This document shows positions 812-25,701 of a DNA stretch of 25,715 bases, in pieces. Numbering within the stretch: the first letter of the stretch is position 1; every line of letters begins with the position of its first letter. The notes beneath the pieces were generated by a model that worked only from the letters and a program-made list of their open reading frames with translations, searched no databases and was not told the origin of the DNA. Made by a program: the position numbers and the translations under genes. Source of the stretch: a virus; the IMG/VR virus record IMGVR_UViG_3300009164_000323, positions 1 to 25,715 of that record. One strand, 5' to 3'.

Positions 812-874
812 ATAGTGTTAGAGCAGCGGCTCTTTCAAGGCACATTAAGGCACAACAGAAAAGGAAAAGGCAAA

Positions 875-1885
875 ATGGCAAGTTTGGCAGAAATTAGAGC
901 TAAGTTACAAGAAATGGAATCCCGCGGTAGCAACAACAGCGGTGGCGGACGCGATAACGCAATCTATCCGCATTGGAACATCCCAGAAAATTCGACAGCA
1001 AGAATTCGCTTCCTCCCGGACGGCGACGATAAGAACATGTTCTTCTGGGTAGAACGTGCAATGATCCGTCTGCCGTTCGCAGGCGTGAAAGGACAAGTCG
1101 GCAGCAAGCCTGTCTTGGTACAGGTACCCTGTGTAGAGATGTGGAACGAGACATGTCCAATCCTCACAGAAGTTCGCACATGGTTCAAGGACAAGAGCCT
1201 CGAAGACATGGGCCGTAAGTATTGGAAGAAGCGTAGTTATATCTTCCAGGGTTTTGTGCGTGAGAACCCGCTCGCAGATGACACTACGCCAGAGAATCCA
1301 ATCCGTCGTTTCGTAGTAAGTCCAAGCATCTTCCCAGTAGTAACTGCGGTGCTGAAGGATACGGAATTCGAAGAGCTTCCTACCGATTACGATCGCGGTC
1401 TGGACTTCTCGATCACTAAGACCACTAAAGGTCAGTATGCAGACTACAGCACCAGCAAATGGGCTCGCAAGGAATCTGCGCTGACAGCAGTGGAACGTGC
1501 TGCTATCGAAGCACACGGCTTGCATGATCTGAAGGGCTTCCTCCCAAAGAAGCCAGGTGAATCTGAACTGAAGATCATGAAAGAGATGTTCGAGGCAAGC
1601 GTAGACGGTGCTATGTATGATGAGAGCCGTTGGGGGCAGTTCTTCAAGCCAGCAGGTTTTAACAGCAACCCAGATGCTGAAGTAGCAGATACTCCAGCAC
1701 CACGCAGCACTGCTAATGCTACAGCAGCAGCTATCATCCGGCGTCCAGTAGTAGAAGATGTCGCTCCATTCGAGACGGACGAGGAAGTTGCAGTAGCAAG
1801 CGCACCAGTATCAACTGATGCACCTAAGACATCAAATCCTCGTGCAGACGAGATACTTGCGATGATCCGCAGCCGCAAGAGCTAA
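875..1885 (+). CDS. 32: Single-stranded DNA-binding protein, gp32 type
   Basis: The predicted protein has 336 residues. The start is the ATG at 875, which follows the purine-rich ribosome site AAGGAAAAGG at 861-870; an upstream GTG at 815 lies too close to the promoter. The sequence begins MASLAEIRAKL. A Cys-x3-Trp-x3-Cys-Pro segment (PCVEMWNETCPI) near residue 90 matches the zinc-bearing part of the T4-like gp32 core. The C-terminus is acidic and flexible, then ends basic (MIRSRKS); in the family this tail recruits replication and recombination partners. gp32 coats ssDNA during replication, recombination and repair. Its place directly before uvsX, with its own early/late promoter, supports the call. 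The call rests on motif and synteny, not alignment. Confidence 0.9.
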   Translation: MASLAEIRAKLQEMESRGSNNSGGGRDNAIYPHWNIPENSTARIRFLPDGDDKNMFFWVERAMIRLPFAGVKGQVGSKPVLVQVPCVEMWNETCPILTEVRTWFKDKSLEDMGRKYWKKRSYIFQGFVRENPLADDTTPENPIRRFVVSPSIFPVVTAVLKDTEFEELPTDYDRGLDFSITKTTKGQYADYSTSKWARKESALTAVERAAIEAHGLHDLKGFLPKKPGESELKIMKEMFEASVDGAMYDESRWGQFFKPAGFNSNPDAEVADTPAPRSTANATAAAIIRRPVVEDVAPFETDEEVAVASAPVSTDAPKTSNPRADEILAMIRSRKS

Positions 1886-1944: not shown

Positions 1945-3015
1945 ATGGCAAAACCGTTTGACATTTCCAAATTTCGAAAGGACTTGACTAAGTCTATCGA
2001 TGGACTCAGCATCGGATATAACGATCCGACGGATTGGATCTCGACAGGCAACTACACACTAAACTATCTAATCTCAGGAGACTTCCATAAGGGCGTTCCT
2101 ATGGGAAAGGTCACTGTGTTTGCTGGTGAATCTGGCGCAGGTAAATCCTATATCTGCTCAGGCAACATCATCAAGAACGCACAGGCACAGGGCATCTATG
2201 TGATCCTGATCGACAGCGAGAACGCACTAGACGAAGCGTGGCTTCATGCACTAGGTGTTGATACAGGTGAGGACAAGCTGCTCAAGCTAAACATGGCAAT
2301 GATCGACGACGTGGCTAAGACCATCTCGGAGTTTGTCAAGAGCTATAAAGCTATGAGCGAGGAAGAGCGTCCTAAAGTATTGTTCGTTGTGGACAGTCTG
2401 GGCATGTTGCTCACTCCGACTGACGTCAATCAGTTCGAGGCAGGCGACATGAAAGGTGACATGGGTCGCAAGCCCAAGGCACTTACAGCACTGGTCCGTA
2501 ATACTGTCAACATGATCGGCAGCTTGAATATCGGTCTAGTAGCAACTAACCATACCTATGCGTCACAGGACATGTTTGATCCAGACGACAAGATCTCAGG
2601 CGGGCAAGGCTTCATCTATGCTAGTTCTATCGTAGTAGCAATGCGTAAGCTGAAGCTGAAGGAAGATGAGGATGGTAACAAGGTAAGCGAAGTCAACGGC
2701 ATCCGTGCTGCTTGTAAGGTCATGAAGACACGTTACTCTAAGCCTTTCGAATCTGTCCAGGTCAAAATCCCGTATGTCACTGGCATGAGCCCATACAGTG
2801 GTCTCATCGATATGCTAGAAGCTAAAGGCTACTTGAAGAAGGACGGCAACCGTCTCTCATACACTAGTCCGGTTACTGGCGAAGTGTTTAAGGAGTTCCG
2901 CAAGAACTGGACAGATCCTCAGCTGGATCAGATCATGGAAGAAGTGATGACTAAGTATGCCCAGCTGATCCAAGATACACCAGCGGAAGATACAGAGGAA
3001 GAAAATCAGGAATGA
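1945..3015 (+). CDS. uvsX: UvsX recombinase (RecA-like)
   Basis: The 356-residue protein is the phage RecA/Rad51 homologue, forming filaments on ssDNA and driving strand exchange with ATP hydrolysis. A Walker A motif GESGAGKS sits at residues 61-68. A Walker B strand VLFVVDS follows with Asp near 150. The length is close to T4 UvsX (about 390) and to its marine T4-like relatives. The start ATG follows AAGGAA with normal spacing. Upstream is the gp32 hairpin; downstream the stop overlaps the next start (ATGA at 3012). It begins a + strand run of genes with few or no gaps that reaches 10213, so glycan genes appear to be co-transcribed with recombination genes. Confidence 0.95.
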   Translation: MAKPFDISKFRKDLTKSIDGLSIGYNDPTDWISTGNYTLNYLISGDFHKGVPMGKVTVFAGESGAGKSYICSGNIIKNAQAQGIYVILIDSENALDEAWLHALGVDTGEDKLLKLNMAMIDDVAKTISEFVKSYKAMSEEERPKVLFVVDSLGMLLTPTDVNQFEAGDMKGDMGRKPKALTALVRNTVNMIGSLNIGLVATNHTYASQDMFDPDDKISGGQGFIYASSIVVAMRKLKLKEDEDGNKVSEVNGIRAACKVMKTRYSKPFESVQVKIPYVTGMSPYSGLIDMLEAKGYLKKDGNRLSYTSPVTGEVFKEFRKNWTDPQLDQIMEEVMTKYAQLIQDTPAEDTEEENQE

Positions 3016-3224
3016 GTGGAGAACTTTTAGCTATATTCTGGCAGACCATACGCGAGTATGTGCCTGCTAAAGATCGGCAGTCTGCAGCCGACCATGTGGT
3101 TAATGAACTTGTAGAAGCAGGGATATCCGATCCGGACCTGCACGAACTTGCAATCGATCGTGTGATGCAGAATGCTATCAAGGAACACGTCGATGTCAAG
3201 GATTATGATGACGAGGATGAATGA
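3012..3224 (+). CDS. Conserved-looking 70-aa protein between uvsX and uvsY
   Basis: A small acidic protein starts at an ATGA overlap with the uvsX stop and ends in an ATGA overlap with uvsY at 3221. It is predicted to be largely helical, with a very acidic C-terminus (YDDEDE). No catalytic motif is visible. The position, coupled on both sides to recombination genes, suggests a recombination or replication accessory factor. I recall small proteins in the same slot of marine T4-like phages, but cannot confirm homology. Function unknown. Confidence 0.8.
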   Translation: MSGELLAIFWQTIREYVPAKDRQSAADHVVNELVEAGISDPDLHELAIDRVMQNAIKEHVDVKDYDDEDE

Positions 3225-3679
3225 GCCATTGGTATTCCAAGGTCTGCGCGAATCTCGGTGAGATCCCTAACTTCATAGCATACTATGAGGATCAATTAGA
3301 GGATGCTCGCCGAGATATCTCCGTGAAAGGCAACGTCGAGAAGAATCTCGCCGCACTGCCTGGAAACACGGAACATCGCTTCAATCAACTACAAGAGATA
3401 GAAGCGGTCCTCAACTTCCTAAACATACAGCTACGGCAGATCCGTCGCAAGCACTTCCAGAAGTATCTGGAACACTATGCTCGTGCGCTCACTGCTCGTG
3501 ATGCCGAGAAGTATGTGGATGGCGAACAGGAAGTGGTAGACTTTGAGACCATCATCAACGATGTTGCACTCGTACGCAACAAATGGTTGGGTGTGATGAA
3601 AGCCATGGAGAGCAAGAACTTCATGCTAGGCCACATCGTTAGACTTAGAGCAGCAGGTATGGAAGACATCACACTATGA
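3221..3679 (+). CDS. uvsY: UvsY-type recombination mediator
   Basis: A 152-residue, mostly helical and charged protein, close in size to T4 UvsY (137 aa). UvsY displaces gp32 and loads UvsX on ssDNA. The assignment rests on size, helical basic/acidic composition and synteny in the order gp32, uvsX, small ORF, uvsY, as in marine T4-like phages. Residues 90-125 hold a helical stretch with many Arg and Lys (IRRKHFQKYLEHYARAL) that could contact DNA. The start overlaps the upstream stop (ATGA), and its stop overlaps the next gene at 3676. Confidence is lower than for UvsX because there is no signature motif. Confidence 0.8.
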   Translation: MSHWYSKVCANLGEIPNFIAYYEDQLEDARRDISVKGNVEKNLAALPGNTEHRFNQLQEIEAVLNFLNIQLRQIRRKHFQKYLEHYARALTARDAEKYVDGEQEVVDFETIINDVALVRNKWLGVMKAMESKNFMLGHIVRLRAAGMEDITL

Positions 3680-6120: not shown

Positions 6121-6125
6121 ATATC
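6118..6125 (+). promoter_or_regulatory. TAAATATC box 5 nt before a start codon (site 1)
   Basis: TAAATA at 6118-6123 ends exactly 5 nt before the ATG at 6129, and there is no ribosome-binding site. The same arrangement recurs at 14320, 19991 and 23027. It resembles the last six bases of the T4 late octamer, and would place the transcript start near the start codon. Function is inferred. Confidence 0.4.
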
Positions 6126-6128
6126 ACC

Positions 6129-12351: not shown

Positions 12352-12469
12352 CGGTTAGACATTGGTCGAACAGGTCCCTGCTTCGAACAAACCAATAAAC
12401 AGTAGGCTATTTGGATAACCCAGGCTTGCATCCATTTCCAGGGTGCCGGTCGCAACAAAAGGAAAGAAG

Positions 12470-13423: not shown

Positions 13424-13579
13424 ATGGATATCCTCATGTTCCTAGCTGTGTATTTCGCAGGATTCTTCACTGCTGTAAATATATTCGGAACTCTCATCTA
13501 CTGGAAAGAGATCAAGGCATGGGTATCAAACATCAAAGAGCGTATACACTGCCAGTGGATTCTCTGGAAATATAGATGA
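13424..13579 (+). CDS. Small membrane protein (51 aa)
   Basis: The ATG at 13424 directly follows the upstream stop; an in-frame ATG at 13391 would add 11 charged residues inside the preceding gene and is less likely. Residues 3-26 are strongly hydrophobic (ILMFLAVYFAGFFTAVNIFG), then Trp- and Lys-rich. The stop overlaps the next start (ATGA at 13576). It is probably co-transcribed with the 93-aa gene and the oxygenase pair. Function unknown. Confidence 0.6.
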   Translation: MDILMFLAVYFAGFFTAVNIFGTLIYWKEIKAWVSNIKERIHCQWILWKYR

Positions 13580-14322
13580 TACCAGGAGTTAGACTAACGA
13601 CTGCTCAGAAGATGAAGTTTGCCAAGCTGTCTGCAAACGTGGAAACCATATCTGATTACATGTCTATATTCAGACAACTGGAGTATCAAGAACTTACACA
13701 ATACTTTAGGATGACGAATAGTAGCTGGCCCGAACGAGAAGGAGAGTTCAGGACTGTCGGTAATATAGGAATCGAAAAAGATTATTACGAGAAACACATA
13801 TTAACTCAGACTCCTCCGGCAATAGAAGAGCTCAATCTAAACGATGAAGTGAAACTACTTAGTGGAAATCATATATCTAGCCACATGGAATATGATTTAA
13901 GCGATATTAAACAACGAATCTTAGAAAAGTTTGGATTGATGGAATGCGAAGTAGCATTACATGATCAACCGCCTGGCGGTGTGCATGTGTGGCATTATGA
14001 CAGCATGCTACGATACTATGAATCTATCTGGTTACCCGCTGATCCTGCTCGCGGTAAACTCAAGTTGAATAAACAAACGCAATGGGCCGATGACGGAACT
14101 ATGCCTATTAGATTATTCGTATCACTAAAAGATTGGCATTACGGACAGATATTCCAATTTGGTAGTAAATTATGGCAGGGATGGCAAGCAGGAGATGTGA
14201 TCTGGTTTGAATGGCAGAATCTTCCTCATGCTACTGCTAATGCAAGCATGTTTAATCGACCGATCGTTCGAGTCACTGGATTGATATCGTTATCCGATGA
14301 AAAGCACAATATGCTCCGGTAA
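13576..14322 (+). CDS. 2OG-Fe(II) oxygenase-like protein (tandem paralogue 1)
   Basis: 248 residues. An iron facial triad can be read as His140-x-Asp142 (WHYD) and His218 (LPHATAN), with Arg228 or Arg232 (RPIVRV) placed to bind 2-oxoglutarate. The core is a beta-helix-like pattern with IFQFGSKLWQGWQAGDVIWFEW before the distal His. The N-terminus shares TTAQKMKFA and the phrase TNSxWPxREG with the next gene, so the two are paralogues. Phage members of this superfamily are common in marine T4-like genomes; substrates are usually unknown (protein, nucleic acid or small molecule). The start is in ATGA overlap with the small membrane gene. Confidence 0.75.
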   Translation: MIPGVRLTTAQKMKFAKLSANVETISDYMSIFRQLEYQELTQYFRMTNSSWPEREGEFRTVGNIGIEKDYYEKHILTQTPPAIEELNLNDEVKLLSGNHISSHMEYDLSDIKQRILEKFGLMECEVALHDQPPGGVHVWHYDSMLRYYESIWLPADPARGKLKLNKQTQWADDGTMPIRLFVSLKDWHYGQIFQFGSKLWQGWQAGDVIWFEWQNLPHATANASMFNRPIVRVTGLISLSDEKHNMLR

Positions 14323-14330: not shown

Positions 14331-15080
14331 ATGACGCACATGATTCCTGCTCCCACAACAGCACAGAAGATAAAATTCGCTCGATATGATTCTGTAGAAA
14401 CCATCAAAGATTATATGGATTTCTTAGACGGGTTAGAGTCTAGAGTAGCAGATCAGATATTCCGTCAGACTAATTCCGGATGGCCAGATCGTGAAGGATA
14501 TTTTGGTAAGGTTGCTGAATTACCTATCCATGATGGATTCTTCGAATCTAATATATTGCCTGTGTCCAAGGAAAGGACTCCTACGCCGTTAGTGTGGGAT
14601 CAAGAGTATCTATGTGGACAACAGAACGCATCTCCTATCGAATATAATCTTAAAGAGATAGCAGATATGGTAGTAGATGCTTTCGATATAGAGGAACCTT
14701 TCGTACAGCTCAGCTGTCAGAAACCTGGTATGGTTCATGCTTTCCATTTTGACGATCTCAAGACTTATTATAAAGGTATATGGACCGAAAATGATCCCAG
14801 CAGGAAAGAGTTCAAGTTTAATAGACAAACACTATGGGCCGAGATGGATGATAGATTTGCTATCAAGTTCATGATACCTCTGACCGATTGGCGTTACGGA
14901 CATATATTCCAATTTGGTATGAAGTATTGGGATAACTGGCGTGCCGGTGATGTAGTGATATTCGATTGGCAGAACTTACCGCATGGCACAGCTAACGCTA
15001 GCTTCTATGATAGACCGATGGTGAGGGTGTCTGCGATAGCAAGATATTCTGATCCTCGCCACGATATATTCCGGACATAA
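14331..15080 (+). CDS. 2OG-Fe(II) oxygenase-like protein (tandem paralogue 2)
   Basis: 249 residues, aligned with its neighbour along its length. His139-x-Asp141 (FHFD), His218 (LPHGTAN) and Arg228/Arg232 (RPMVRV) keep the iron and 2-oxoglutarate residues in the same positions. Shared landmarks are TTAQKIKFA, TNSGWPDREG and the IFQFG...W.AGDV...F.WQNLPH run. Both copies seem intact, so they may act on different substrates or as a heteromer. An alternative start at 14340 (MIPAP) exists; 14331 is favoured by its 5-nt distance from the TAAATATC box. The stop is followed by a hairpin belonging to the opposite strand. Confidence 0.75.
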   Translation: MTHMIPAPTTAQKIKFARYDSVETIKDYMDFLDGLESRVADQIFRQTNSGWPDREGYFGKVAELPIHDGFFESNILPVSKERTPTPLVWDQEYLCGQQNASPIEYNLKEIADMVVDAFDIEEPFVQLSCQKPGMVHAFHFDDLKTYYKGIWTENDPSRKEFKFNRQTLWAEMDDRFAIKFMIPLTDWRYGHIFQFGMKYWDNWRAGDVVIFDWQNLPHGTANASFYDRPMVRVSAIARYSDPRHDIFRT

Positions 15081-15991: not shown

Positions 15992-16004
15992 ATGTGTCTC
16001 TCCA

Positions 16005-17318
16005 TCAGAAATAAAGTGTTAACATCCTAACTATAGCAGGTTCTAATCGATCTTGCAATAAGAAAACGAATATGAAAGGCATCTTATCTTGGTTGCGTAA
16101 CAGCAGTCCGATCGTTGAGAACACTGCTAACACTATGATGTAATATAGCCCCTGACCATAGCTGTATCCAATCTTGAACACGGTATAGGTGCAGATAGCA
16201 GTCAGTATCCAAGGTGTGTATCTGCCCAACTTGTATAGGTTCTTTATCACTGCACCAGCTAGGTTCCAGCTGAGAAAGAAACTGATGATGTTAGCTATGA
16301 TCAACCATGCTGCTACAGTCTCGAATATCGGCTTGACCGTGATCCAGTTTAACACATGTGCAGATGTGTTGGTTATCTCTAGCAATAGATTCTCACTAGG
16401 TTGGATAGCAATGCCGTATATCAACACTGGCAGCAACACGCTGATCCCTGCTGCATTAGTTGCAGTCTCAGCAGCAGTCGCTTGTCTCAGAGATGAATTC
16501 TTTAACCAGCGTTCGACATAGAATGCGATATATGCGCTGACGTCAATGCCCACATAGGGAATGAGTCCTGCGAAGAATCCGATCCAACTTCCTCGAATCA
16601 TCGAGAAGACATTATCCTTTATCAGTTTCAGCTTGTTGACTAGCTTCCTATTAAAATCGATAGCAGCAGAAGCTGCACCATCCAATGAATCGATGGATTT
16701 CACGATGTTTGGTATCGCATACATGCCCAGCAACACGCTGATCACAGGTAATCCGCCACTGAGCCACATATTGCCGAACGTGAGGAAATGCTCCTTGCTG
16801 TAAGGATCTATTCCTATCTTGCTGAGCGTCCACCCAGCGGGTATCATCAACAGTGTCATCCACCAACGATTATCGCTGAACACGGAACACATGATGAGTC
16901 CGATAGCACTGAATCCGATCATCACGTAGACACGGAGATAGTCAGTATTGGTTGCAATGAAATCGATGATCAGATAGCTGAGCACGAACGTGCTGATAGC
17001 GCCTACAAAATGACCAAACGCACACAGGAACAGTGCTTCCAGTTGGTTATCTTCGCGTATGATGTCGTCTCGTATCCGCAGCAATGGTATGCTGTTCGTC
17101 TCGCCTGGCAATCCTACTGCTAATGCAGTGATGCTACCGCCAAACTGACAAGCACTTACCATGGAGCAGTAGAATATCAATATCAACACTAGCGGCAGTT
17201 TCATGAGGAAAGTAAATGCCAGGATCATGAACACTGACACTCCTATTCCCGGTAGAAGTCCTGCGATGAATCCAGCGGAGACTCCTGCTAAGCAGGCTAT
17301 TAGATGTTCTATTCCCAT
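16005..17318 (-). CDS. TctA-type permease of the tripartite tricarboxylate transporter
   Basis: 437 residues with about ten to twelve hydrophobic segments. Residues near 16-30 carry AGFIAGLLPGIGVSVFM, the first signature (GLLPGIG). A second, related segment near 260 (FFAGLIPYVGIDVSAYIAF) reflects the internal duplication of TctA. TAAETATNAAGISVLLPVLIYGI is the conserved post-duplication block. It is shorter than bacterial TctA (about 500). Its start shares a base with the stop of the PP-loop gene (TGATG). TctA is the large membrane subunit; the small TctB subunit is not in this window, so either the host supplies TctB or the phage pair works without it. Confidence 0.85.
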   Translation of the reverse strand: MGIEHLIACLAGVSAGFIAGLLPGIGVSVFMILAFTFLMKLPLVLILIFYCSMVSACQFGGSITALAVGLPGETNSIPLLRIRDDIIREDNQLEALFLCAFGHFVGAISTFVLSYLIIDFIATNTDYLRVYVMIGFSAIGLIMCSVFSDNRWWMTLLMIPAGWTLSKIGIDPYSKEHFLTFGNMWLSGGLPVISVLLGMYAIPNIVKSIDSLDGAASAAIDFNRKLVNKLKLIKDNVFSMIRGSWIGFFAGLIPYVGIDVSAYIAFYVERWLKNSSLRQATAAETATNAAGISVLLPVLIYGIAIQPSENLLLEITNTSAHVLNWITVKPIFETVAAWLIIANIISFFLSWNLAGAVIKNLYKLGRYTPWILTAICTYTVFKIGYSYGQGLYYIIVLAVFSTIGLLLRNQDKMPFIFVFLLQDRLEPAIVRMLTLYF

Positions 17319-18556
17319 CAGTCGCTTTCTAATTCTTCTTCTGTATGATACCAGATGTAGTGCTTCGGACTGCTCAGTGTTGGAAAACCGCTGTGCCAGA
17401 ACGACATGCTATGAGCATACAATGGTTTGACAGTTTTGTAAAGCTCAAATATGCCTCTGGTCCAGTTCTTGAAGAATTCGGTATTGCGATCTCGGACTGA
17501 CCAATCGCTACAAGGCTTCCAGGGCGTGCTGTTGGTCAGATGCATGCCGGGAACATCCTTGATGCTCTTGAGACCATGATAAGGTCTGGGTAGGAAACGA
17601 GGACCATACAGTATCTTACCGAGCACATCTTCGTGTATCCGACTGAAGCACAATTCTTCGCTCTGTGCTAATATAGGATCTCCTGCTTGTCTTGCTTTCC
17701 GTATCATGTGCGCTTGTTTAAGCTGCATCTTGATAGTAGTAGGATCCCAATAGAACAGTTCTACCCACTGTGGAAGTCCTGGTTCTAATGCTCTAGGCAA
17801 TACATGGTCCTGATGATTCGTCTCGCCATAGCGCATGAAATACCCTATCTCATCTCGGAACACGCCGGGCTTCTCTTTGCCTATAATGTGTCCGACACGC
17901 TTTCCTTTCTCAGTCATCACTCGCCAAGGACGATGAAGCAGATCATAGTCTGTCCTGGGCAGAGCAAATGGATCGATGCTGGCAGTGTGTCTCTTCTCGA
18001 ACCATTTTGGATCCGATTCGATCATCTTCAGCAATGTATCTGTTGTATCAGCAAAAGTGATTTCGACATCGGGCCAATAGTTACCTTTGATATATTTTGC
18101 TACCGGCAGTGCTAGATTGTGGGGTTCTAAGCATTCCATATCGGTTGCTACGTTCTGTTTCTCGAACTCGGATCTAGCAGTGTTCACAGAACCTGCATGA
18201 TACCGTATGAATAGTTGATCTATCTTCAGTCCTGCTCTGATGAAAGTCTGTGCAATGTTTCCGCTGTCATCGCCACCGCTGAAATGCAAAACGAGGTAAT
18301 CATAATCGTTACGAAGCTGTCTAGCTCTTTGAGCGTACAGTTCGAATATATCTTCCTCGGGTTCTTTAGTTAGATCGACTGCAGCTAGTTCTTTCTCAAA
18401 TATGTGCCAAGTCAGTTCTTGCCCAGACTTGATGCTATCCTGGAATGCTTCTAGCTTGTTGAAATATTCTCTATCTCCAACTCGATACACACCGACCTTG
18501 TGTACGTTTGTGTTTATTATCCTGGGATCGTTGATTAATGACAAGTCAGGCTCCAC
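17318..18556 (-). CDS. PP-loop ATP pyrophosphatase-like protein
   Basis: 412 residues starting at GTG 18556, which overlaps the end of the radical SAM gene by 11 nt; no ATG fits as well. LVLHFSGGDDSGNIAQTFI contains the PP-loop SGGxDS at residues 93-98. Such loops bind ATP in N-type pyrophosphatases (asparagine synthetase, PAPS reductase, tRNA-thiolation and QueC-like enzymes), which activate a carboxylate or carbonyl as an adenylate. The rest (about 300 residues) has no family landmark I recognise. It lies between a radical SAM protein and the TctA/TctC pair, all overlapping, which suggests one pathway. QueC, TilS and MnmA are unlikely given the length and context. Confidence 0.75.
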   Translation of the reverse strand: MEPDLSLINDPRIINTNVHKVGVYRVGDREYFNKLEAFQDSIKSGQELTWHIFEKELAAVDLTKEPEEDIFELYAQRARQLRNDYDYLVLHFSGGDDSGNIAQTFIRAGLKIDQLFIRYHAGSVNTARSEFEKQNVATDMECLEPHNLALPVAKYIKGNYWPDVEITFADTTDTLLKMIESDPKWFEKRHTASIDPFALPRTDYDLLHRPWRVMTEKGKRVGHIIGKEKPGVFRDEIGYFMRYGETNHQDHVLPRALEPGLPQWVELFYWDPTTIKMQLKQAHMIRKARQAGDPILAQSEELCFSRIHEDVLGKILYGPRFLPRPYHGLKSIKDVPGMHLTNSTPWKPCSDWSVRDRNTEFFKNWTRGIFELYKTVKPLYAHSMSFWHSGFPTLSSPKHYIWYHTEEELESD

Positions 18557-19850
18557 AATGTCTCTGAAGCAATGACCAAAGATCTGGCAGAGTGGAGCGC
18601 CAATCAGTCTTTCGAGTCCTATCTAGATAATCCATCAATCTAATAAATTTGTCTATCATAACAGGATCTTCCGGCCAATCTAGCCTACCTTCGAGAAATT
18701 TGTTCAATGCTACCACTCTCGGAGAATCTACTGATCGATTAAACTCGACGATCTCTTGCTTGGCAGATCTTGGTAACGAATCTATGCTCATGTATTCGGG
18801 AGAATATATCCATCGATATACTACGTTAGGACTATTCTTGTTATTGATTCTCCAGTGTTCTATCTCTGGTACACTAAAGATGTTTGGAAGCATGTAGCAA
18901 ACGCTGGTTCCCCAGAAATATATATGGTCCTGGTTCATTACTATATCGAGGTTCTTCTCGAACGTTTCCCACTTTCCCCCATAACGTATCAGCTCGTAAC
19001 GATGACCAACATCATCCATGCTACCTGACAGTCCTACACGTTTGAAATGCTTCCATCTCTCTATCAATTTTGGATTGACTACGCTGAGGTTGCTTGCTGG
19101 CCATAGCGTTATGTTCTTAGCAACATCGTGTTCGATGAAGAAGTCTAGGACCTTATCGTGGTCCTGCATGATGAAAGGTTCGCCGCCTAATATGGCTACG
19201 TCGATTAGATCGTCCTTGATCTCGTTCAATATCTTCCAAAAGTTCTCTGATTTGACATAAGGATCGAAGTTTGCTTTTAGCTTACCGTTGTCATTCCTCG
19301 TCAGCGTCCATTTGGTAGATAGATCACCGCCGGGTCCCTTATGGAAGTCTGGACCGAAGAATCCGTTATAATCTTCATACCATAACGTGCTTTCGGCTGG
19401 GCTACAATGCAAGCAGGCGTAGTTACAGAGATTTCCAAAACGTAGATCAAGCGTCTGTATCTTGACTTTGTCTATATAACCAGTGACTGGATCAGCGGAT
19501 CTTATCAGTCTTGCTATCTCTTGATCTTCTGGAACTCTTCTCTGCAGGTTCTTCATCATGCCTGCGGGATTGGTCTTAATGTCCTTGCAGTTAACGCAGT
19601 GTTTATGCCACTTGCCCTGTAACTGATGTAATCTAATATCTTTATGTAGATCGCTGTTTAACACATCTTGTAATACAGCACCCTTGCCTATGTTATACCT
19701 GTCGCTGTTACCGAGATAACCTTGGGTAGATCTATCTTCGCACTGTTCGCGACAGACTACCATCTCTCCGGTATTCTTCGTGGATATCTCGCTCCAAGGA
19801 TAGCTACAGAATACATCCTTGATGTCCTGGTATTTAGGTTTCTTTTCCAT
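18546..19850 (-). CDS. Radical SAM protein with N-terminal twitch/SPASM-like segment (1)
   Basis: 434 residues from the ATG at 19850; an extended frame to 19985 would run through tRNA-Val and is rejected. The CxxxCxxC motif is Cys142, Cys146, Cys149 (GNLCNYACLHC). GGEP at 222-225 binds SAM. Before the core lie Cys15 (FCSYPW), Cys33 and Cys37 (VVCREQC) and Cys85/Cys88 (HCVNC), with a G-N near residue 48. This resembles the SPASM/twitch auxiliary cluster region, but placed at the N-terminus. Such enzymes modify peptides or small molecules by radical chemistry. It is the first protein gene of an operon headed by tRNA-Val 20 nt upstream; no ribosome site is seen in that gap. Confidence 0.85.
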   Translation of the reverse strand: MEKKPKYQDIKDVFCSYPWSEISTKNTGEMVVCREQCEDRSTQGYLGNSDRYNIGKGAVLQDVLNSDLHKDIRLHQLQGKWHKHCVNCKDIKTNPAGMMKNLQRRVPEDQEIARLIRSADPVTGYIDKVKIQTLDLRFGNLCNYACLHCSPAESTLWYEDYNGFFGPDFHKGPGGDLSTKWTLTRNDNGKLKANFDPYVKSENFWKILNEIKDDLIDVAILGGEPFIMQDHDKVLDFFIEHDVAKNITLWPASNLSVVNPKLIERWKHFKRVGLSGSMDDVGHRYELIRYGGKWETFEKNLDIVMNQDHIYFWGTSVCYMLPNIFSVPEIEHWRINNKNSPNVVYRWIYSPEYMSIDSLPRSAKQEIVEFNRSVDSPRVVALNKFLEGRLDWPEDPVMIDKFIRLMDYLDRTRKTDWRSTLPDLWSLLQRHCGA

Positions 19851-19870
19851 ATTGTAGTTATCTGAGAAAA

Positions 19871-19945
19871 TGGTGGGTGATGAGAGATTCGAACTCCCGA
19901 CAACTGCTGTGTAAAAGCAGGGCTCTACCGCTGAGCTAATCACCC
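19871..19945 (-). tRNA. tRNA-Val (anticodon UAC)
   Basis: A complete cloverleaf. The 7-bp acceptor is GGGTGAT with ATCACCC, the D arm is normal, the anticodon stem CTGCT/AGCAG has loop TTTACAC (UAC), and TTCGAAT is the T loop. The discriminator is A and CCA is encoded (plus-strand TGG at 19871-19873). It sits alone between two divergent radical SAM genes, 20 nt before the start of one. Its 5' end is 8 nt past the -10 box. Confidence 0.95.
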
Positions 19946-19953
19946 ATGTTATA

Positions 19954-19981
19954 ATAATAGCATATTTATCGAGCTTGTCAA
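19954..19981 (-). promoter_or_regulatory. Promoter of the tRNA-Val / radical SAM operon
   Basis: On the minus strand TTGACA (19976-19981) and TATTAT (19954-19959) are 16 nt apart. Eight bases separate the -10 box from the tRNA 5' end. A late-type GATAAATA also reads on the minus strand at 19963-19970. Confidence 0.8.
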
Positions 19982-19990
19982 TCACTTAGT

Positions 19991-19996
19991 TAAATA
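19991..19996 (+). promoter_or_regulatory. TAAATA box 5 nt before a start codon (site 3)
   Basis: TAAATA ends 5 nt before the ATG at 20002 of the second radical SAM gene, with no ribosome site. The box reads GTTAAATAC, slightly different from the other sites. Confidence 0.4.
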
Positions 19997-20001
19997 CCCG
20001 C

Positions 20002-21222
20002 ATGGAACCTTTACAGTGCAAGTTGGCTGAGCTAAGCCTAAACCTCGATATGAGCGGCCAGATGAGTTGCTGCAATCTAAACAATCTCTATCTCAAGGAT
20101 GAGCTAGGAAACACCCTTAGGTTAGATAAGGACAGCGTTCGATCTGCTTGGACCAGTCCTACACGTCGCAAGCTATTAGGAACTCTCGAGAAAGGCATAC
20201 CTCATCCTTACTGCAGAGCATGTTGGAACATGGAAGCAGTGGGCAGCAAGAGCATACGCCAGCACTATAACACGCTGTTAGCGGATGTAGAGCCTCTACC
20301 ATCCCAACCTCGCATCATGATCATCAAGCACGGCAACAAGTGCAACAGCGCATGTCGTAGCTGTAGCGCACACAGTAGCACGCTCTGGTACAAGGATGCT
20401 TATGCTATGGAAGAGACTGATGTGCCTTATAAGGTATGGCTCAAGCAATGGCGCAGCCATGAGGAGAGCTATAACGATAATCAGGATCTCAAGGAGACAC
20501 TGGCAGAGTGGAGCGAGGGCATCGTGTTCTTCGATCTGTATGGGGGGGAGCCGTTGTTGCATCCGTTGACCTACGATATCGTAGATCATGCTGTCACGTC
20601 AGGACATGCAGCAAACCAGGACATTCAGATGCATATCAACGGCACGATATGGAATGATAAGCTGGTGGAGCAGTTGAAACAATATAAATCAGTTAGCATA
20701 GGCTACAGTGTAGATGCCGTAGGCGGGCGTAACGATTATATCAGGATGGGTAGCAAGTGGGATGTAGTATTGTCTAACCTAGAACGCTGGTTAGAGGTAG
20801 CTAGGAATCATCCTAACTTCAGTGTATCCATCAAATGCACAGGCATGAGCCATAACGTGTACTACCTAGGTGAGACGTTTGATTTCTTCAGTCGCATGGA
20901 TGTTCCTATGTATTTCACTAATCGTGTGACTGATGTAGACAAGCGTGAAGCTAACATGATGTATCTTCCCGAATTTGCGAAGCAAGCAGTCATAGACAAG
21001 TTAATGTCGTACGAACCATTGCCTAAGTATAAGGATCTATGGGAAGATCAGAGAGATTGTACCATACGCTTCATCAGCAAGAAGCCTACCGATCACGACA
21101 CGTTTGTTGATAGTTTCTGGATACGCAATCGCAAGCTGGATCTAATGCGTAGGCAAGACTATGGTAAGGTATTTCCGGAATTCAATGTTATATTGGAAGA
21201 TCATTATGTTGGTGCCCAATGA
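20002..21222 (+). CDS. Radical SAM protein with N-terminal twitch/SPASM-like segment (2)
   Basis: 406 residues. Cys114, Cys118, Cys121 (GNKCNSACRSC) form the radical SAM motif and GGEP at 181-184 the SAM-binding part. N-terminal cysteines Cys23/Cys24 (GQMSCC) and Cys71/Cys74 (YCRACW) with a G-N near 37 repeat the plan of the divergent paralogue. LEKGIPHPYCRACWNMEAVG resembles the corresponding twitch part. It is divergent from the tRNA-Val operon. The last four codons and TGA 21220-21222 lie inside the antisense 3' end of tRNA-Thr, so the tRNA sequence supplies the stop. The two paralogues look substantially diverged. Substrate unknown. Confidence 0.85.
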   Translation: MEPLQCKLAELSLNLDMSGQMSCCNLNNLYLKDELGNTLRLDKDSVRSAWTSPTRRKLLGTLEKGIPHPYCRACWNMEAVGSKSIRQHYNTLLADVEPLPSQPRIMIIKHGNKCNSACRSCSAHSSTLWYKDAYAMEETDVPYKVWLKQWRSHEESYNDNQDLKETLAEWSEGIVFFDLYGGEPLLHPLTYDIVDHAVTSGHAANQDIQMHINGTIWNDKLVEQLKQYKSVSIGYSVDAVGGRNDYIRMGSKWDVVLSNLERWLEVARNHPNFSVSIKCTGMSHNVYYLGETFDFFSRMDVPMYFTNRVTDVDKREANMMYLPEFAKQAVIDKLMSYEPLPKYKDLWEDQRDCTIRFISKKPTDHDTFVDSFWIRNRKLDLMRRQDYGKVFPEFNVILEDHYVGAQ

Positions 21223-21284
21223 GGGATTCGAACCCCCGACCTACGGTTTACGAAACCGTTGCACTACCTCTGTGCTAATTGGGC
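21210..21284 (-). tRNA. tRNA-Thr (anticodon CGU)
   Basis: Acceptor GCCCAAT with ATTGGGC, anticodon stem ACGGT/ACCGT, loop TTCGTAA (CGU), T loop TTCGAAT, discriminator A, encoded CCA. No promoter fits just upstream. It is probably co-transcribed with the oxygenase gene whose stop codon it contains (TAG formed by tRNA positions 8-10). Confidence 0.95.
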
Positions 21285-21895
21285 AGGAAAGGATTAGTCT
21301 CTAGTCCTACCTGTATCGCTGTCCTGTGTCCAGGAATGTTCTCTACGCTGTGTGGAAATCTCGCATCCAGTATCACCCAAGTGTTCAACGGTATCACGAT
21401 GCTATCTGATTCTACTAGTTCGTCCTCATCGCCCCAGATCTCAGCACGTTCGAAGACTGTTCGTCCGTCCTTAGAATCCCAGAACACAGTTCTGTGATCC
21501 TCGCCGCCCGACTCTAATAGATAGATCATAGCAAATGATCTAGTCCTGTCGGTGTGTGGAGGATGCCTATGACCTGGATCAATGCTTCTATGCAGTCTCA
21601 GCGTCTCATATTTGCTCACGATATGTTCCTCAACCCACTCTATTAATCTCTGAGATAGATCGATACCAGGAATGCGTTTCAGACCGTTTGCTGTATATTC
21701 TTCCATGGTATGTTTCTTGAGATAGTTCTTCATGGATTGACTGTGCGAACTGGTCATGTATTGTTTGAACTGAGAATTATCCTCGTCTACTGCTGCTAGC
21801 GTCTCTTCGATCATGTCCTCGGGCACCTGAGGTAGATGATCCAGTATCATGTAGCGCGGGGAGATTATGGAATAATCGTGATATTGATCTGTCAT
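21275..21895 (-). CDS. 2OG-Fe(II) oxygenase-like protein (prolyl/aspartyl hydroxylase type)
   Basis: 206 residues from the ATG at 21895; AAAGG precedes it at a suitable distance, and upstream in-frame codons overlap an RNA gene. His114-x-Asp116 (PPHTDRTRS), His182 (FPHSVEN) and Arg191 (GHRTAIQ) are the iron and 2-oxoglutarate residues. The spacing between the Asp and distal His (66) fits the superfamily. It is not a close paralogue of the tandem pair at 13576-15080. The stop TAG (21275-21277) falls in tRNA-Thr, 7 nt from its 5' end. Upstream on the same strand are tRNA-Tyr and a tRNA-like element, so the gene sits in a tRNA-led transcript. Substrate unknown. Confidence 0.8.
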   Translation of the reverse strand: MTDQYHDYSIISPRYMILDHLPQVPEDMIEETLAAVDEDNSQFKQYMTSSHSQSMKNYLKKHTMEEYTANGLKRIPGIDLSQRLIEWVEEHIVSKYETLRLHRSIDPGHRHPPHTDRTRSFAMIYLLESGGEDHRTVFWDSKDGRTVFERAEIWGDEDELVESDSIVIPLNTWVILDARFPHSVENIPGHRTAIQVGLETNPFLPN

Positions 21896-21921
21896 TGAAT
21901 CTGCCTTTCGATGATACTTAG

Positions 21922-22018
21922 TGGTTGCGCTGCGGAATCGAACCGCTCTTGGCATTTTGAAACCTACTCCACCTCTCGGCGTCTCGGATTTCCTGTGCTA
22001 CCATTACACTAGACGCAA
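21922..22018 (-). tRNA. tRNA-like element with an abnormal anticodon domain
   Basis: The ends and arms of a tRNA are present: near-paired acceptor (TTGCGTC with AGCGCAA), a normal D arm (GTGTAATGGTAGCAC), a T arm GCGG-TTCGATT-CCGC, and CCA. The 47 nt between the D and T arms is about 24 nt longer than in a normal tRNA, and no 5-bp anticodon stem with a 7-nt loop forms. A hairpin CGCC-GAGA-GGTG and an outer GAAA(T)CC/GGTTTC pairing are possible. The middle also contains a second D-arm-like stretch, so the element may be a chimera of two tRNAs. The specificity cannot be assigned. It may be a pseudo-tRNA. Confidence 0.5.
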
Positions 22019-22021
22019 ACT

Positions 22022-22104
22022 TGGTGGGCCGTCCTGGAATCGAACCAGGCATGCTATAAGCGGGGGATTTACAGTCCCCGGTATCACCTTGATACTTCCG
22101 ACCC
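22022..22104 (-). tRNA. tRNA-Tyr (anticodon GUA)
   Basis: Anticodon stem GGGGA/TCCCC with loop CTGTAAA (GUA), T arm CCTGG-TTCGATT-CCAGG, acceptor GGGTCGG with ACGGCCC (one mismatch, one wobble), discriminator A, encoded CCA. An enlarged variable arm fits bacterial class II tRNA-Tyr. It is 3 nt before the tRNA-like element. Confidence 0.9.
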
Positions 22105-22119
22105 TTAACTCTCATTATC

Positions 22120-22147
22120 ATATTAACATAATTGGATGATATGTCAA
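22120..22147 (-). promoter_or_regulatory. Promoter of tRNA-Tyr
   Basis: TTGACA on the minus strand (22142-22147) with TAATAT (22120-22125) 16 nt away; a second possible -10, TATGAT, lies at 22117-22122. The -10 box is farther from the tRNA (15 nt) than in the other tRNA promoters. Confidence 0.6.
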
Positions 22148-22157
22148 CCGTTAATCT

Positions 22158-22234
22158 TGGTACCCAGTGATGGATTCGAACCAACTCCTCCAGATCCACA
22201 ATCTGGTGTGCTGAACCAACAACACTAACTGGGC
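22158..22234 (-). tRNA. tRNA-His (anticodon GUG)
   Basis: Anticodon stem CCAGA/TCTGG, loop TTGTGGA (GUG), T loop TTCGAAT, acceptor GCCCAGT/ACTGGGT (one G-T pair), encoded CCA. The base before position 1 is T and the discriminator is A, whereas His tRNAs usually have G and C there. Confidence 0.92.
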
Positions 22235-22242
22235 ATTATCTA

Positions 22243-22270
22243 ATAATAGCACAGTATCAGAATATGTCAA
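22243..22270 (-). promoter_or_regulatory. Promoter of tRNA-His inside the end of the iron permease gene
   Basis: On the minus strand TTGACA (22265-22270) and TATTAT (22243-22248) are 16 nt apart, with 8 nt to the tRNA 5' end. The -35 box is made of the last permease codons. Confidence 0.8.
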
Positions 22271-22859
22271 TACCATAGATCTCTAATGTCTCTGTGACCC
22301 CGTGCCATAGATAGTAAGCGGCCATTGCCAATAACACGAATCCAACATAGCGGAACATGATCCGGCTGGTCATGCCCTTACCAATGCGCTCGTAAGCATA
22401 AAGTACAGCCGCTAGCACAGGGACACCTGCAGCGAGTCCGATGATCACTCCCGTGGGATCTGTCTTGATGTTAGATCCAAGGAACACTGTGGACTCTAAT
22501 GCTTCACGCAGCACGATGAGAAACACTGTTAGGTGTATGGTCCATATGCTGCTGTCCTTCACTTCGTTAGCATGCTCCTTCGCATGATCAAAGATCGCTC
22601 GACTGTTAAAGAAGATATAGATCAGCACGAATGCAGTGACTATCTTGAACATGTTCTCGATGTGCTCCATCCACGGCCATATCGCGTCCAGCACGAACCA
22701 GCCTGCAGCCAGCGTCAGCACCCATGTCGCTACGAAGTTGAAATTGATATGGTTCTTGTATTCCTTAGGGAGAGCAGAAACAATCATGCCTGTGAGCAAC
22801 AAGCTCTCGAAGCCTTCTCGAACTAATACAAGTGCAGTGCTGGTGACGGTGCTTAACAT
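22257..22859 (-). CDS. FTR1/EfeU-type high-affinity iron permease
   Basis: 200 residues with about six to seven hydrophobic segments. The two hallmark iron-path motifs of the FTR1/Fip1/EfeU family are both present: REGFE at 14-18 and REALE at 118-122, each in a membrane helix (LVLVREGFESLL; FLIVLREALEST). Spacing by about 104 residues reflects the ancestral duplication. The protein is shorter than bacterial EfeU (about 270-280) because the C-terminal part is reduced. In the family, these Glu residues guide Fe(III)/Fe(II) across the inner membrane, with EfeO and EfeB as partners; neither partner is in this window. The ATG follows AAGGAA. tRNA-Arg lies 20 nt upstream in the same transcript; the end overlaps the tRNA-His promoter. 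Confidence 0.9.
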   Translation of the reverse strand: MLSTVTSTALVLVREGFESLLLTGMIVSALPKEYKNHINFNFVATWVLTLAAGWFVLDAIWPWMEHIENMFKIVTAFVLIYIFFNSRAIFDHAKEHANEVKDSSIWTIHLTVFLIVLREALESTVFLGSNIKTDPTGVIIGLAAGVPVLAAVLYAYERIGKGMTSRIMFRYVGFVLLAMAAYYLWHGVTETLEIYGIDIF

Positions 22860-22879
22860 GGCGGTTCCTTAAAAGTATA

Positions 22880-22956
22880 TGGCGATCCGGAAGGGATTCG
22901 AACCCCTGACACCAGCTTTAGGAAAGCTGTGCTCTATCCTGCTGAGCTACCGGACC
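22880..22956 (-). tRNA. tRNA-Arg (anticodon CCU)
   Basis: Acceptor GGTCCGG/CCGGATC (one wobble), anticodon stem CAGCT/AGCTG, loop TTCCTAA (CCU), T loop TTCGAAT, discriminator G, encoded CCA. It is 20 nt ahead of the iron permease gene and 8 nt from its own -10 box. Confidence 0.95.
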
Positions 22957-22964
22957 ATATCAAC

Positions 22965-22992
22965 ATTGTAACATATACTGTTAGTTAGTCAA
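22965..22992 (-). promoter_or_regulatory. Promoter of tRNA-Arg and the iron permease gene
   Basis: On the minus strand TTGACT (22987-22992) and TACAAT (22965-22970) are 16 nt apart, with 8 nt from the -10 box to the mature tRNA 5' end. Confidence 0.8.
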
Positions 22993-22996
22993 TAAG

Positions 22997-23013
22997 TATC
23001 CTGTAACAGGATA
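22997..23013. promoter_or_regulatory. 17-bp palindrome upstream of the duplicated glycosyltransferase gene
   Basis: TATCCTGT (22997-23004) and ACAGGATA (23006-23013) are perfect 8-bp arms around one base. It lies between the tRNA-Arg promoter and the TAAATATC box of the next gene, a typical operator position. Confidence 0.5.
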
Positions 23014-23026
23014 TGATTGGTCGAGT

Positions 23027-23034
23027 TAAATATC
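23027..23034 (+). promoter_or_regulatory. TAAATATC box 4 nt before a start codon (site 4)
   Basis: TAAATA ends 4 nt before the ATG at 23037. It supports 23037 as the start rather than the in-frame ATG at 23013, which lies inside the palindrome. Confidence 0.4.
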
Positions 23035-23036
23035 GG

Positions 23037-25361
23037 ATGATTTTACCCTGTAAAGAGAACAAGATCGAACATAATCTAGTGTTCTTCGATCATCCAGAAC
23101 ACGTTAGTCGAGATCACCTGGTAGATCAACAGATATTGTTAGATCCTCGAAAGATGTATCTAAGATTTGAAACAATCTGTCAACACGTCGATATCAGCAG
23201 ATATTTCCTGTTCGTCGTGCATTTCAGAAACGATTTCCGGGACTTTCCTTATGATTACATCGATCGATATCGTAAGCATGCAGTTGCACATGATCTAATA
23301 TTTCGAATAGTGATGTTTGAACCAGGAGAAGCTCCTACCTATCGTTGGGATATGAGACAGGTAGTTGATACGCTTGTATCTTCTTATGCATTGGATCGCT
23401 ATGCTATCATATTCATGAGTGGTGCTCAACACCAGTTTTCCGATCCGTTCATCAATAGCATATGTTATGATGCTATAGGTTTTGAGGACATGTGGAAATC
23501 TATTAGACCTTGGCGTATACCTACGCATCATTATATTAGTCTAGCTCGCAGGGCTAAACCACACAGGATAGTTGCTACCGTAGAGATGCTTGATCGACGG
23601 CTGGACAATTTTGGTCACATGAGCTTAGGAGCTGCAGGTGATAATGCCTGCGAACCTAGATTTAGATATCTCATACCCGACCGATATCTAGATAGATTTC
23701 CTATTAGGCTAGATCACGATAACGTGACTGATGATCTGATGTATGATACGACAGATGATCGTATCACTGATGCGTTTGTTAATGTGATAATGGAAACCAG
23801 CTTCGAGCGAGATCCTTGGAATAACGAAACTTGGAACGTGCCATTCATGACAGAGAAAACCAGCAAGGCTTTCCTTCTAAGACAAGTGCCGATCATGATA
23901 TCTCATCGGTATTCCTTGACTTTCCTCAGAGAACATGGATTCGATCTGTTCGATGATATCATCGATCATAGTTACGACAACGAGGCTAGACCGGAAACCA
24001 GGATAAAGATGGCTATAGATCAATTACAGATCATATGCAGCAAGGACATCACGCATTGGCAGGATTATAAGATCGCTAATCAACACAGATTCGATAAAAA
24101 CAATAATATCATGCAGTCGATGATATTAGATAGAGATCTAAATTCTGCTCGCAACCTTAGCAAGGCATTGACATACTCAAATTCTACAACAGTTTATAAT
24201 ATAGATCATCGTACGATGAATTCTGTATGGTTAGAAACAGGTTGCTATCGCAATGATCAATATGGTTATGTCAATCAAGTCTTAGAACAATGTGATATCA
24301 GCAGATTCTTTCTATTCATTATTGATCAAAACGGGCTCGTCGGCGATGGTGTATTTCCAGAAGAACTACTTAAAGAATATCAGAGACATGCTGAGCATAA
24401 TAATCTCATCTTCGTCGTCGTGTTCGTAAATCTACAGGAAGCGCCTACATATCCTCATACATTCAAACCGATGGTAGATAGCATATCTCAGAGATATAAC
24501 ATACCGTTAGAAAGAATGATCATCTTCGGTGGCGCACAGCATCAGTTTGATACCCCTATACAGAACGCACTTACTCTTAAGGTTGCAGCCAAACCGTATC
24601 TATGGATCGATTCGAATCCATACAATGATCACGCACAACATAGCAATCAGCCCACACATCATTTCATAAGCCTAGCGAGACATCCTAAGTTCCATAGGAT
24701 AGCTGCCACTGTAGAGATATTGGATAGAGGATTACAGGATCTGGGATACATGAGCTTGGGCAGCACGGAGAACAGGTATTTCTGGGAAAATCTAAGCGCC
24801 GTCCCTGCGCGATATCACCCACTCGTGCCTATGATCTTGGATCATCAGGATGTACAGGAACAGGACATATACGGTAGCACGGATGATCGGATGGTGAGAG
24901 CATTTGTGAATCTAGTGATGGAGAGTGCATACGAACCTAGACCTTGGGGGCAAGGCTTATGGAACGTGCCGTTCATGACGGAGAAAACCATGAAGCCTTT
25001 CATATGGGGACAGGTTCCTGTGTTCGTAGCACATCAGCATAGCTTAAAATTCTTGAGGGATTGGGGGTTTGATCTATTCGAGGACATCGTGGATCATAGC
25101 TATGACTGCGATCCCGATTCAGCTGGTCGAGTAGTGTTAGCGATAGATCAGCTAGAAAAGATATGCAAGATGCCGATAGAACATTGGCAGCAGTATAAGA
25201 CAGATAACATGCATAGATTCAATCACAATGCTGATATGGCTCGAAAGGTCATGCATGAGCAGGAGCTGGTAGCGATACCTAATTTTAGGAAAGCATTAGA
25301 ATTGGCTGGAGGACAGAGACTCGAACCTCAGACATCCAGAGCCTGGCGTTCTACCAACTGA
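23037..25361 (+). CDS. Large internally duplicated glycosyltransferase-like protein
   Basis: 774 residues in two homologous halves of about 380. Landmarks recur in order in both: DISR(Y/F)FLF, EAPTY, GAQHQF, (Y/F)ISLARxxKxHRI(V/A)ATVE, (H/Y)MSLG, DDRxxxAFVNxxME, WNVPFMTEKT.K.F, LxFLRxxGFDLF, IxDHSYD and a HWQxYK end. The EKT-x-K-x(3)-GxxP(V/I) plus GF-x-LF and DHSYD layout is that of a phage C-terminal glycosyltransferase domain with a conserved TEKT box. So it is probably a gene fusion after tandem duplication. The first half keeps TEKTSKAF and the second TEKTMKPF. The last about 19 codons and the TGA (25359-25361) are read from a degenerate tRNA-Gln on the opposite strand, so the original C-terminus was probably altered. 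Substrate unknown. Confidence 0.75.
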   Translation: MILPCKENKIEHNLVFFDHPEHVSRDHLVDQQILLDPRKMYLRFETICQHVDISRYFLFVVHFRNDFRDFPYDYIDRYRKHAVAHDLIFRIVMFEPGEAPTYRWDMRQVVDTLVSSYALDRYAIIFMSGAQHQFSDPFINSICYDAIGFEDMWKSIRPWRIPTHHYISLARRAKPHRIVATVEMLDRRLDNFGHMSLGAAGDNACEPRFRYLIPDRYLDRFPIRLDHDNVTDDLMYDTTDDRITDAFVNVIMETSFERDPWNNETWNVPFMTEKTSKAFLLRQVPIMISHRYSLTFLREHGFDLFDDIIDHSYDNEARPETRIKMAIDQLQIICSKDITHWQDYKIANQHRFDKNNNIMQSMILDRDLNSARNLSKALTYSNSTTVYNIDHRTMNSVWLETGCYRNDQYGYVNQVLEQCDISRFFLFIIDQNGLVGDGVFPEELLKEYQRHAEHNNLIFVVVFVNLQEAPTYPHTFKPMVDSISQRYNIPLERMIIFGGAQHQFDTPIQNALTLKVAAKPYLWIDSNPYNDHAQHSNQPTHHFISLARHPKFHRIAATVEILDRGLQDLGYMSLGSTENRYFWENLSAVPARYHPLVPMILDHQDVQEQDIYGSTDDRMVRAFVNLVMESAYEPRPWGQGLWNVPFMTEKTMKPFIWGQVPVFVAHQHSLKFLRDWGFDLFEDIVDHSYDCDPDSAGRVVLAIDQLEKICKMPIEHWQQYKTDNMHRFNHNADMARKVMHEQELVAIPNFRKALELAGGQRLEPQTSRAWRSTN

Positions 25362-25370
25362 CTATTTCCC
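25303..25370 (-). pseudogene. Degenerate tRNA-Gln copy lacking the anticodon
   Basis: It matches the nearby tRNA-Gln(CUG) at 25545-25620 over most of its length (shared D arm TCAGTTGGTAGAACGCCAG, T loop TTCGAGT, GCCA end). About 6 nt holding the anticodon loop are missing; only CCAG-GCT-CTGG remains. The acceptor pairs poorly. The + strand glycosyltransferase gene reads through it and ends inside. Confidence 0.8.
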
Positions 25371-25380
25371 GATATAATGT

Positions 25381-25455
25381 TGGCTGGGGGACAGGGACTC
25401 GAACCCCGACTGGCGGAATCAAAATCCGCTGATCTACCAATTAATCTATCCCCCA
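25381..25455 (-). tRNA. tRNA-Gln (anticodon UUG)
   Basis: Acceptor TGGGGGA/TCCCCCA, anticodon stem GCGGA/TCCGC, loop TTTTGAT (UUG), T loop TTCGAGT, discriminator G, encoded CCA. It is followed, 10 nt on, by the degenerate Gln copy. Confidence 0.95.
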
Positions 25456-25463
25456 ATATAGTG

Positions 25464-25541
25464 TTAGCAAGAGGCCGGTGAGGTATCCGCCAATCTATTG
25501 AAGCTGCCCGTTCTCCGTTTGCTTTCCTTACCTCTTGCTAA
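25464..25541 (-). ncRNA. 78-nt structured element in the tRNA array (candidate ncRNA)
   Basis: TTAGCAAGAGG (25464-25474 as read on +) and CCTCTTGCTAA (25531-25541) form a perfect 11-bp terminal stem around 56 nt. It fills the gap between tRNA-Gln(UUG) and tRNA-Gln(CUG) and is the size of a tRNA, but it has no T loop (TTCGA) or D arm. A second pairing is possible inside it: GAGGTA with TACCTC, which uses the same GAGG bases as the outer stem, so two conformations compete. Strand is assumed from the neighbouring tRNAs. No known RNA family is recognised. Confidence 0.45.
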
Positions 25542-25544
25542 TGT

Positions 25545-25620
25545 TGGCTGGGGAACAAGGACTCGAACCTCGGACATCCAGATTCAGAGTCTGGCGTTCT
25601 ACCAACTGAACTATTCCCCA
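25545..25620 (-). tRNA. tRNA-Gln (anticodon CUG)
   Basis: Acceptor TGGGGAA/TTCCCCA, D arm GTTCAGTTGGTAGAAC, anticodon stem CCAGA/TCTGG, loop CTCTGAA (CUG), T loop TTCGAGT, discriminator G, encoded CCA. Six nt separate it from tRNA-Met. Confidence 0.95.
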
Positions 25621-25626
25621 ATCGCT

Positions 25627-25701
25627 TGGTGCTAATGGCTGGTTTCGAACCAGCTTTGGAGACCTTATGAGGATCTTACGATGCCAAACCGTCCCACTAG
25701 C
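25627..25701 (-). tRNA. tRNA-Met (anticodon CAU; could be Ile-lysidine type)
   Basis: Acceptor GCTAGTG/CATTAGC (one G-T), short D stem ACG/CGT, anticodon stem AGATC/GGTCT, loop CTCATAA (CAU), T arm GCTGG-TTCGAAA-CCAGC, discriminator A, encoded CCA. Positions 8-9 are GG rather than the usual T-A. CAU may also be modified to read Ile AUA; the sequence alone does not decide. The last 14 bases of the window after it may be the end of another tRNA but are too short to call. Confidence 0.9.

Follow-up and report, generated by a model that had tools for sequence, protein, structure and literature searches.

A predicted six-helix FTR1-type iron permease encoded within the tRNA array of a T4-like phage

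Known FTR1 systems and the short phage form

EfeU (YcdN), the permease of the EfeUOB system, is a protein of 276 aa with seven transmembrane (TM) regions, and FTR1 systems are usually paired with periplasmic partners such as EfeO/EfeB, P19 or a multicopper oxidase (PMC9174327). An earlier note on the stretch of DNA analyzed here (the window, a 25,715-base virus record that is a metagenome-derived fragment) proposed that it encodes an FTR1-type iron permease of a T4-like phage. The coordinates given for the open reading frame (ORF) were exact, and the strand, which had been left unstated, is minus (Table 1). The Pfam profile search with the 200-aa ORF gave a match to PF03239, the family of EfeU and yeast Ftr1p, at 42.4 bits against a curated gathering score of 25.3 (E 7e-11), and the match is therefore well beyond chance. 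The TIGR00145 (E 9e-13) and NCBIfam EfeU (E 4e-9) profiles also align along the protein, although their scores fall far under the curated equivalog cut-offs (48.4 of 303.8 bits for TIGR00145 and 36.5 of 255 bits for NF041756). The protein is very divergent, with 22-31% identity to its relatives; no PHROGs family was found for it, sequence searches of the PDB gave no match, and Foldseek comparison of its model with the PDB and BFVD returned nothing significant.

Like EfeU and Ftr1p, the phage protein has RExxE in helices 1 and 4, an ExxE acidic element before helix 3 and the same order of helices 1 to 6. Residues R14, E15, G16, E18, E65, R118, E119 and E122 are invariant across the viral and cellular rows of our alignment (A5). 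The alanine of the second motif, REALE, is no cause for alarm, because the second motif of some cellular FTR1 members reads REVFE, RELFE or REILE. In the AlphaFold2 model (11-row alignment, mean pLDDT 74) there are six long helices and one short one; the first membrane helix contains REGFE and the fourth REALE, and the earlier description of a multi-helix protein with both motifs intact holds. However, EfeU has seven TM regions and EfeO and EfeB as partners, whereas the phage protein, when aligned with EfeU, spans helices 1 to 6 and ends at the start of the loop that leads to helix 7; the seven-TM architecture of EfeU and Ftr1p proper was not found, only six predicted TM helices ending at the start of TM7. 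This form without TM7 is common to all of the viral relatives and to the short cellular members that pass PF03239. The window protein is thus predicted to be a six-helix short form of FTR1 and not a canonical EfeU, and the permease assignment stands as to family and motifs but not as to the seventh helix or the EfeO/EfeB partners. Specifically, profiles recognized nothing resembling EfeO/EfeB, P19 or a multicopper oxidase among the scanned ORFs of the 25.7-kb fragment, and the phage FTR1 may therefore act alone or with host partners.

The best single-sequence matches are FTR1 proteins of 211-223 aa from one order of Pseudomonadota with AT-rich genomes of 1.0-1.5 Mb, within a cellular FTR1 sample drawn from Pseudomonadota only; our guess is that the order is possibly Pelagibacterales. 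These short proteins (G415, G458, G549 and others) resemble the phage protein in length, in the absence of a seventh helix and in a conserved F-H-AK segment, but they are cellular and only about 28-31% identical to it. In one of these genomes (G415, contig L200) an apparent catalase-peroxidase gene, KatG, lies directly downstream of the short FTR1 gene (5393-8302).

Genomic setting in the window

The gp32-type single-strand DNA-binding protein (SSB), UvsX and UvsY, all assigned by PHROGs, identify the contig by sequence as part of a large T4-like phage, as the earlier note had claimed. The FTR1 gene is embedded in a minus-strand run of tRNA genes, with tRNA genes on both sides. Eight tRNA genes (Val, Thr, Tyr, His, Arg, two Gln and Met) lie among protein genes at 19871-25701 on the minus strand. 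Of the two sigma70-like sites in Table 1, the one upstream of tRNA-Arg is a possible promoter for tRNA-Arg and FTR1.

Table 1. Features of the window, with coordinates, strand and the basis for each assignment
Feature	Coordinates	Strand	Basis
Predicted FTR1-family short iron permease	22257..22859	-	200 aa; PF03239 match; model; tree
REGFE, first iron-path motif (residues 14-18)	22806..22820	-	Translation; R14, E15, G16, E18 invariant
REALE, second iron-path motif (residues 118-122)	22494..22508	-	Translation; R118, E119, E122 invariant
AAGGA, RBS-like, 6 nt before FTR1 ATG	22866..22870	-	Direct sequence reading
gp32-like SSB	815..1885	+	phrog_1192 E 8e-61
UvsX recombinase, lineage marker	1945..3015	+	phrog_97 E 7.5e-68
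UvsY-like recombination mediator	3221..3679	+	phrog_231 E 6e-14
tRNA-Arg (CCT), ends 20 nt before FTR1 start codon	22880..22956	-	ARAGORN
tRNA-His (GTG), begins 22 nt past FTR1 stop codon	22158..22234	-	ARAGORN
tRNA-Tyr (GTA), next after tRNA-His in the array	22022..22104	-	ARAGORN
Sigma70-like site, 8 nt upstream of tRNA-Arg	22965..22992	-	TTGACT-16-TACAAT, 10/12; consensus match only
Sigma70-like site overlapping FTR1 3' end, 8 nt upstream of tRNA-His	22243..22270	-	TTGACA-16-TATTAT, 11/12; consensus match only
Radical SAM protein, twitch-domain type, probable iron user	18546..19985	-	NF033640 258 bits, cut-off 170
Radical SAM protein, probable iron user	20002..21222	+	PF04055 E 2.6e-11, over cut-off
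Putative Fe(II)-dependent oxygenase	21275..21955	-	HxD...H...R conserved with L268; no profile match
Putative Fe(II)-dependent oxygenase	13576..14322	+	HxD...H...R conserved; no significant profile match
Putative Fe(II)-dependent oxygenase, paralogue of 13576..14322 (47% identity)	14331..15080	+	Alignment

Five iron-using proteins near one iron importer had been called a notable coincidence. The two radical SAM proteins among them were confirmed by profile (Table 1), although the start of the first ORF may be placed too far upstream, since ARAGORN finds tRNA-Val at 19871-19945. The three putative oxygenases keep their HxD...H...R pattern in relatives but have no Pfam assignment, and no SufT, Nfu or heme oxygenase gene is present in the window.

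Other genes of the window are recorded here as side observations. A TctA-family transporter (PF01970, E 4e-49) is encoded at 15113-17318 on the minus strand, and beside it lies the gene of a 292-aa exported protein that resembles TctC without matching any profile. TctA recurs (E 1e-150) in G1096, another phage contig that carries FTR1. An OmpA-like outer-membrane beta-barrel (PF13505) lies at 12443-13021 on the plus strand and Porin_4 genes are present in FTR1-bearing relatives; both membranes of the envelope thus seem to receive proteins encoded by these phages. On the plus strand at 23013-25361 is a 782-aa protein of two similar halves with neither a Pfam match nor a GenBank-phage tblastn match, and near the contig start (163-708, plus) is a short protein with tandem IGGPAPTSGAKPMNT repeats.

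Viral relatives and their iron genes

When the window FTR1 was used alone as the query, neither IMG/VR nor the genome contigs yielded relatives; alignments were needed to find them. The viral relatives went undetected with an alignment weighted toward EfeU, one that included the short cellular members found 7 IMG/VR contigs and a later viral alignment found 19. The distinct copies on these 19 other contigs are 193-208 aa long and carry both motifs, both copies of RExxE being where they are expected in the window protein and in 15/15 distinct FTR1 proteins of the viral clade (alignment A6). Best profile matches to another family, or loss of the glutamates in close relatives, had been named in the earlier note as grounds for abandoning its reading; neither was found, because the profile match is to FTR1 and both Glu motifs are present in every viral relative. 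Pairs of FTR1 genes among the viral relatives have dN/dS of 0.13-0.20. The gene, which the earlier note placed outside the usual phage gene set, is on sequence grounds found repeatedly in a group of phages and is not a one-off. IMG/VR searches baited with the TctA-type transporter and with the radical SAM protein at 20002-21222 of the window found no relatives.

A tree with bacterial and viral members had been suggested as a check. In our 77-row tree the window and 15 viral rows form a clade with support 97/92, which is joined to the short cellular FTR1 proteins at 99/92. However, the end branch of the window FTR1 is very long (3.04) and other positions for it are not rejected by the AU test (p 0.21 and 0.12), so that the orthology of the window gene rests on layout as much as on the tree. 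As to layout, five FTR1 contigs have SSB-UvsX-UvsY, with UvsX 73-79% identical to that of the window, and in all of them (5/5), as in the window, these genes are on the plus strand with FTR1 downstream on the minus strand. When the five are oriented alike, their order is SSB-UvsX-UvsY (+), primase and DnaB, radical SAM genes, and then FTR1 (-) roughly 30 kb from UvsX, whereas in the window about 20 kb separate the two genes, with neither primase nor DnaB between them. FTR1 is patchy among UvsX-related phages: no PF03239 match was obtained in 50 other contigs related by UvsX, including two larger than 230 kb.

The short FTR1 proteins of IMG/VR contigs L251-L269 are, like that of the window, phage-encoded, 193-208 aa long and equipped with both motifs and adjoining tRNA genes. 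They differ in forming a tight clade (48-88% identical to L204) that is only about 25-30% identical to the window FTR1, in having tRNA-Thr and usually tRNA-Ala downstream where the window has tRNA-His and tRNA-Tyr, and in the SufT and heme oxygenase genes of some members. Every A6-clade relative scanned has tRNA-Thr after FTR1 on the same strand, mostly with tRNA-Ala. FTR1 phage contigs (L251, L253, L265, L269, L207 and others) also carry host-type genes, among them ClpP, ClpX, DnaK, heme oxygenase, class III aminotransferase and MFS transporter genes.

The iron theme is stronger in the relatives than in the window. In L251, L252, L253 and L255, which represent one subclade, a short distance upstream of FTR1 there is an oppositely oriented gene for a SufT/MIP18-type Fe-S assembly protein (PF01883), and in L207, a contig that is viral by IMG/VR's call, there is an FTR1-Nfu-SufT array (Nfu by PF08712 and PF01106). 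A heme oxygenase gene is found within about 3-6 kb of FTR1 on three distinct contigs (G1093/G1094, G1096 and L252). In an unbiased Pfam search of the five UvsX-bearing contigs, 12 of the 15 radical SAM matches were ≤7 kb from FTR1 where 4.4 were expected, but these are not 12 independent events and the p-value for clustering exaggerates how much independent evidence there is, because the five contigs are related. Moreover, the UvsX relatives G022 and G025 (261 and 232 kb) have 14 and 8 radical SAM matches, respectively, with no detectable FTR1, and the coincidence of an iron importer with radical SAM proteins is therefore partly general to these phages.

Proposed function and alternative readings

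The sequences themselves show that the protein belongs to the FTR1 family, that its motifs are intact, that the gene is on a phage contig and that it recurs, at a conserved place, in the phage group; they also show purifying selection in the relatives and, in some of them, linkage to Fe-S assembly genes. We now put forward a function for the gene, to which we give a probability of roughly 0.7, namely that it encodes a minimal six-helix FTR1 iron permease that is made by the phage during infection and imports iron for iron-dependent enzymes made at that time. FTR1 would be expressed in infection, probably early and cotranscribed with the tRNA genes, and the protein would insert into the host inner membrane. 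Here the glutamates of the two RExxE motifs, in helices 1 and 4, would form the path by which the metal, presumably iron, is passed, probably inward. The extra iron would most likely go to iron-dependent enzymes that are produced while infection proceeds, chiefly radical SAM and Fe-S cluster enzymes, as well as to non-heme iron oxygenases.

Any such proposal must be weighed against other roles for the protein. That it is an FTR1-fold transporter for another metal, or one working in the opposite direction (Mn, Zn or iron export), is suggested by its high divergence and lost seventh helix, and sequence cannot by itself give specificity; yet both RExxE motifs are kept in all relatives, where FTR1 is linked to Fe-S assembly and heme oxygenase genes, and we consider this unlikely. 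Small membrane proteins that alter the envelope or block superinfection are common in phages, and a non-transport role of this type would fit with the OmpA-like barrel nearby and the porins in relatives. The ion-path glutamates, however, are constrained along with the rest of the protein and iron genes adjoin FTR1 in relatives, which makes a non-transport role less probable again.

The remaining alternatives deny the gene a function in the phage. The very long branch, the failure to find a close relative and the presence of REALE where REGxE is usual might point to a decaying or recently captured host remnant, functionless for the phage, but the ORF is intact and preceded by an RBS-like sequence, the Glu and Arg residues of both motifs are intact, cellular second motifs also depart from REGxE, and the layout matches that of the five UvsX-bearing relatives; we rank a remnant below a non-transport role. 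For a 25.7-kb record from a metagenome it must also be asked whether cellular DNA was joined to a phage contig in assembly. The composition of the window is fairly uniform, FTR1 is set within the tRNA array and the arrangement repeats in independent metagenomes with phage hallmark genes, and we reject a chimera as the most improbable reading of all.

The preferred reading, that of a phage-made iron importer, places the gene with the phage auxiliary metabolic genes in general, in that it is of host type and kept by phages under purifying selection; it differs in that neither GenBank phage records nor PHROGs nor the papers searched yielded a convincing phage FTR1. GenBank matches labeled as phage were unannotated Listeria, Staphylococcus and faecal records, which we take to be host DNA. 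The literature search, covering phages or viruses with FTR1, EfeU or iron permease but few subscription papers and no preprints, gave no report of a phage FTR1; an efeU match in a paper on viruses was spurious, the matched text being 'EF_Euk'.

Iron is often limiting for aquatic bacteria, and iron in phages has been discussed largely as a component of tail proteins (the Ferrojan Horse idea). The data herein suggest that a T4-like phage and related uncultured phages bring iron into the infected cell for their own iron-dependent enzymes. More tentatively, and at rather less than even odds, we propose that a group of T4-like phages has an iron-supply module, in which FTR1 in the tRNA array, in some phages together with SufT, Nfu and heme oxygenase, feeds radical SAM enzymes and Fe(II) oxygenases; if true, this would be a virus-encoded route of iron uptake and Fe-S biogenesis. 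The six-helix FTR1 without a seventh helix appears to be a form maintained by selection, and the outcome is a concrete, testable set of genes. If real, a conserved phage iron importer tied in relatives to Fe-S assembly and radical SAM genes would mean that some phages actively alter how much iron an infected cell has at its disposal.
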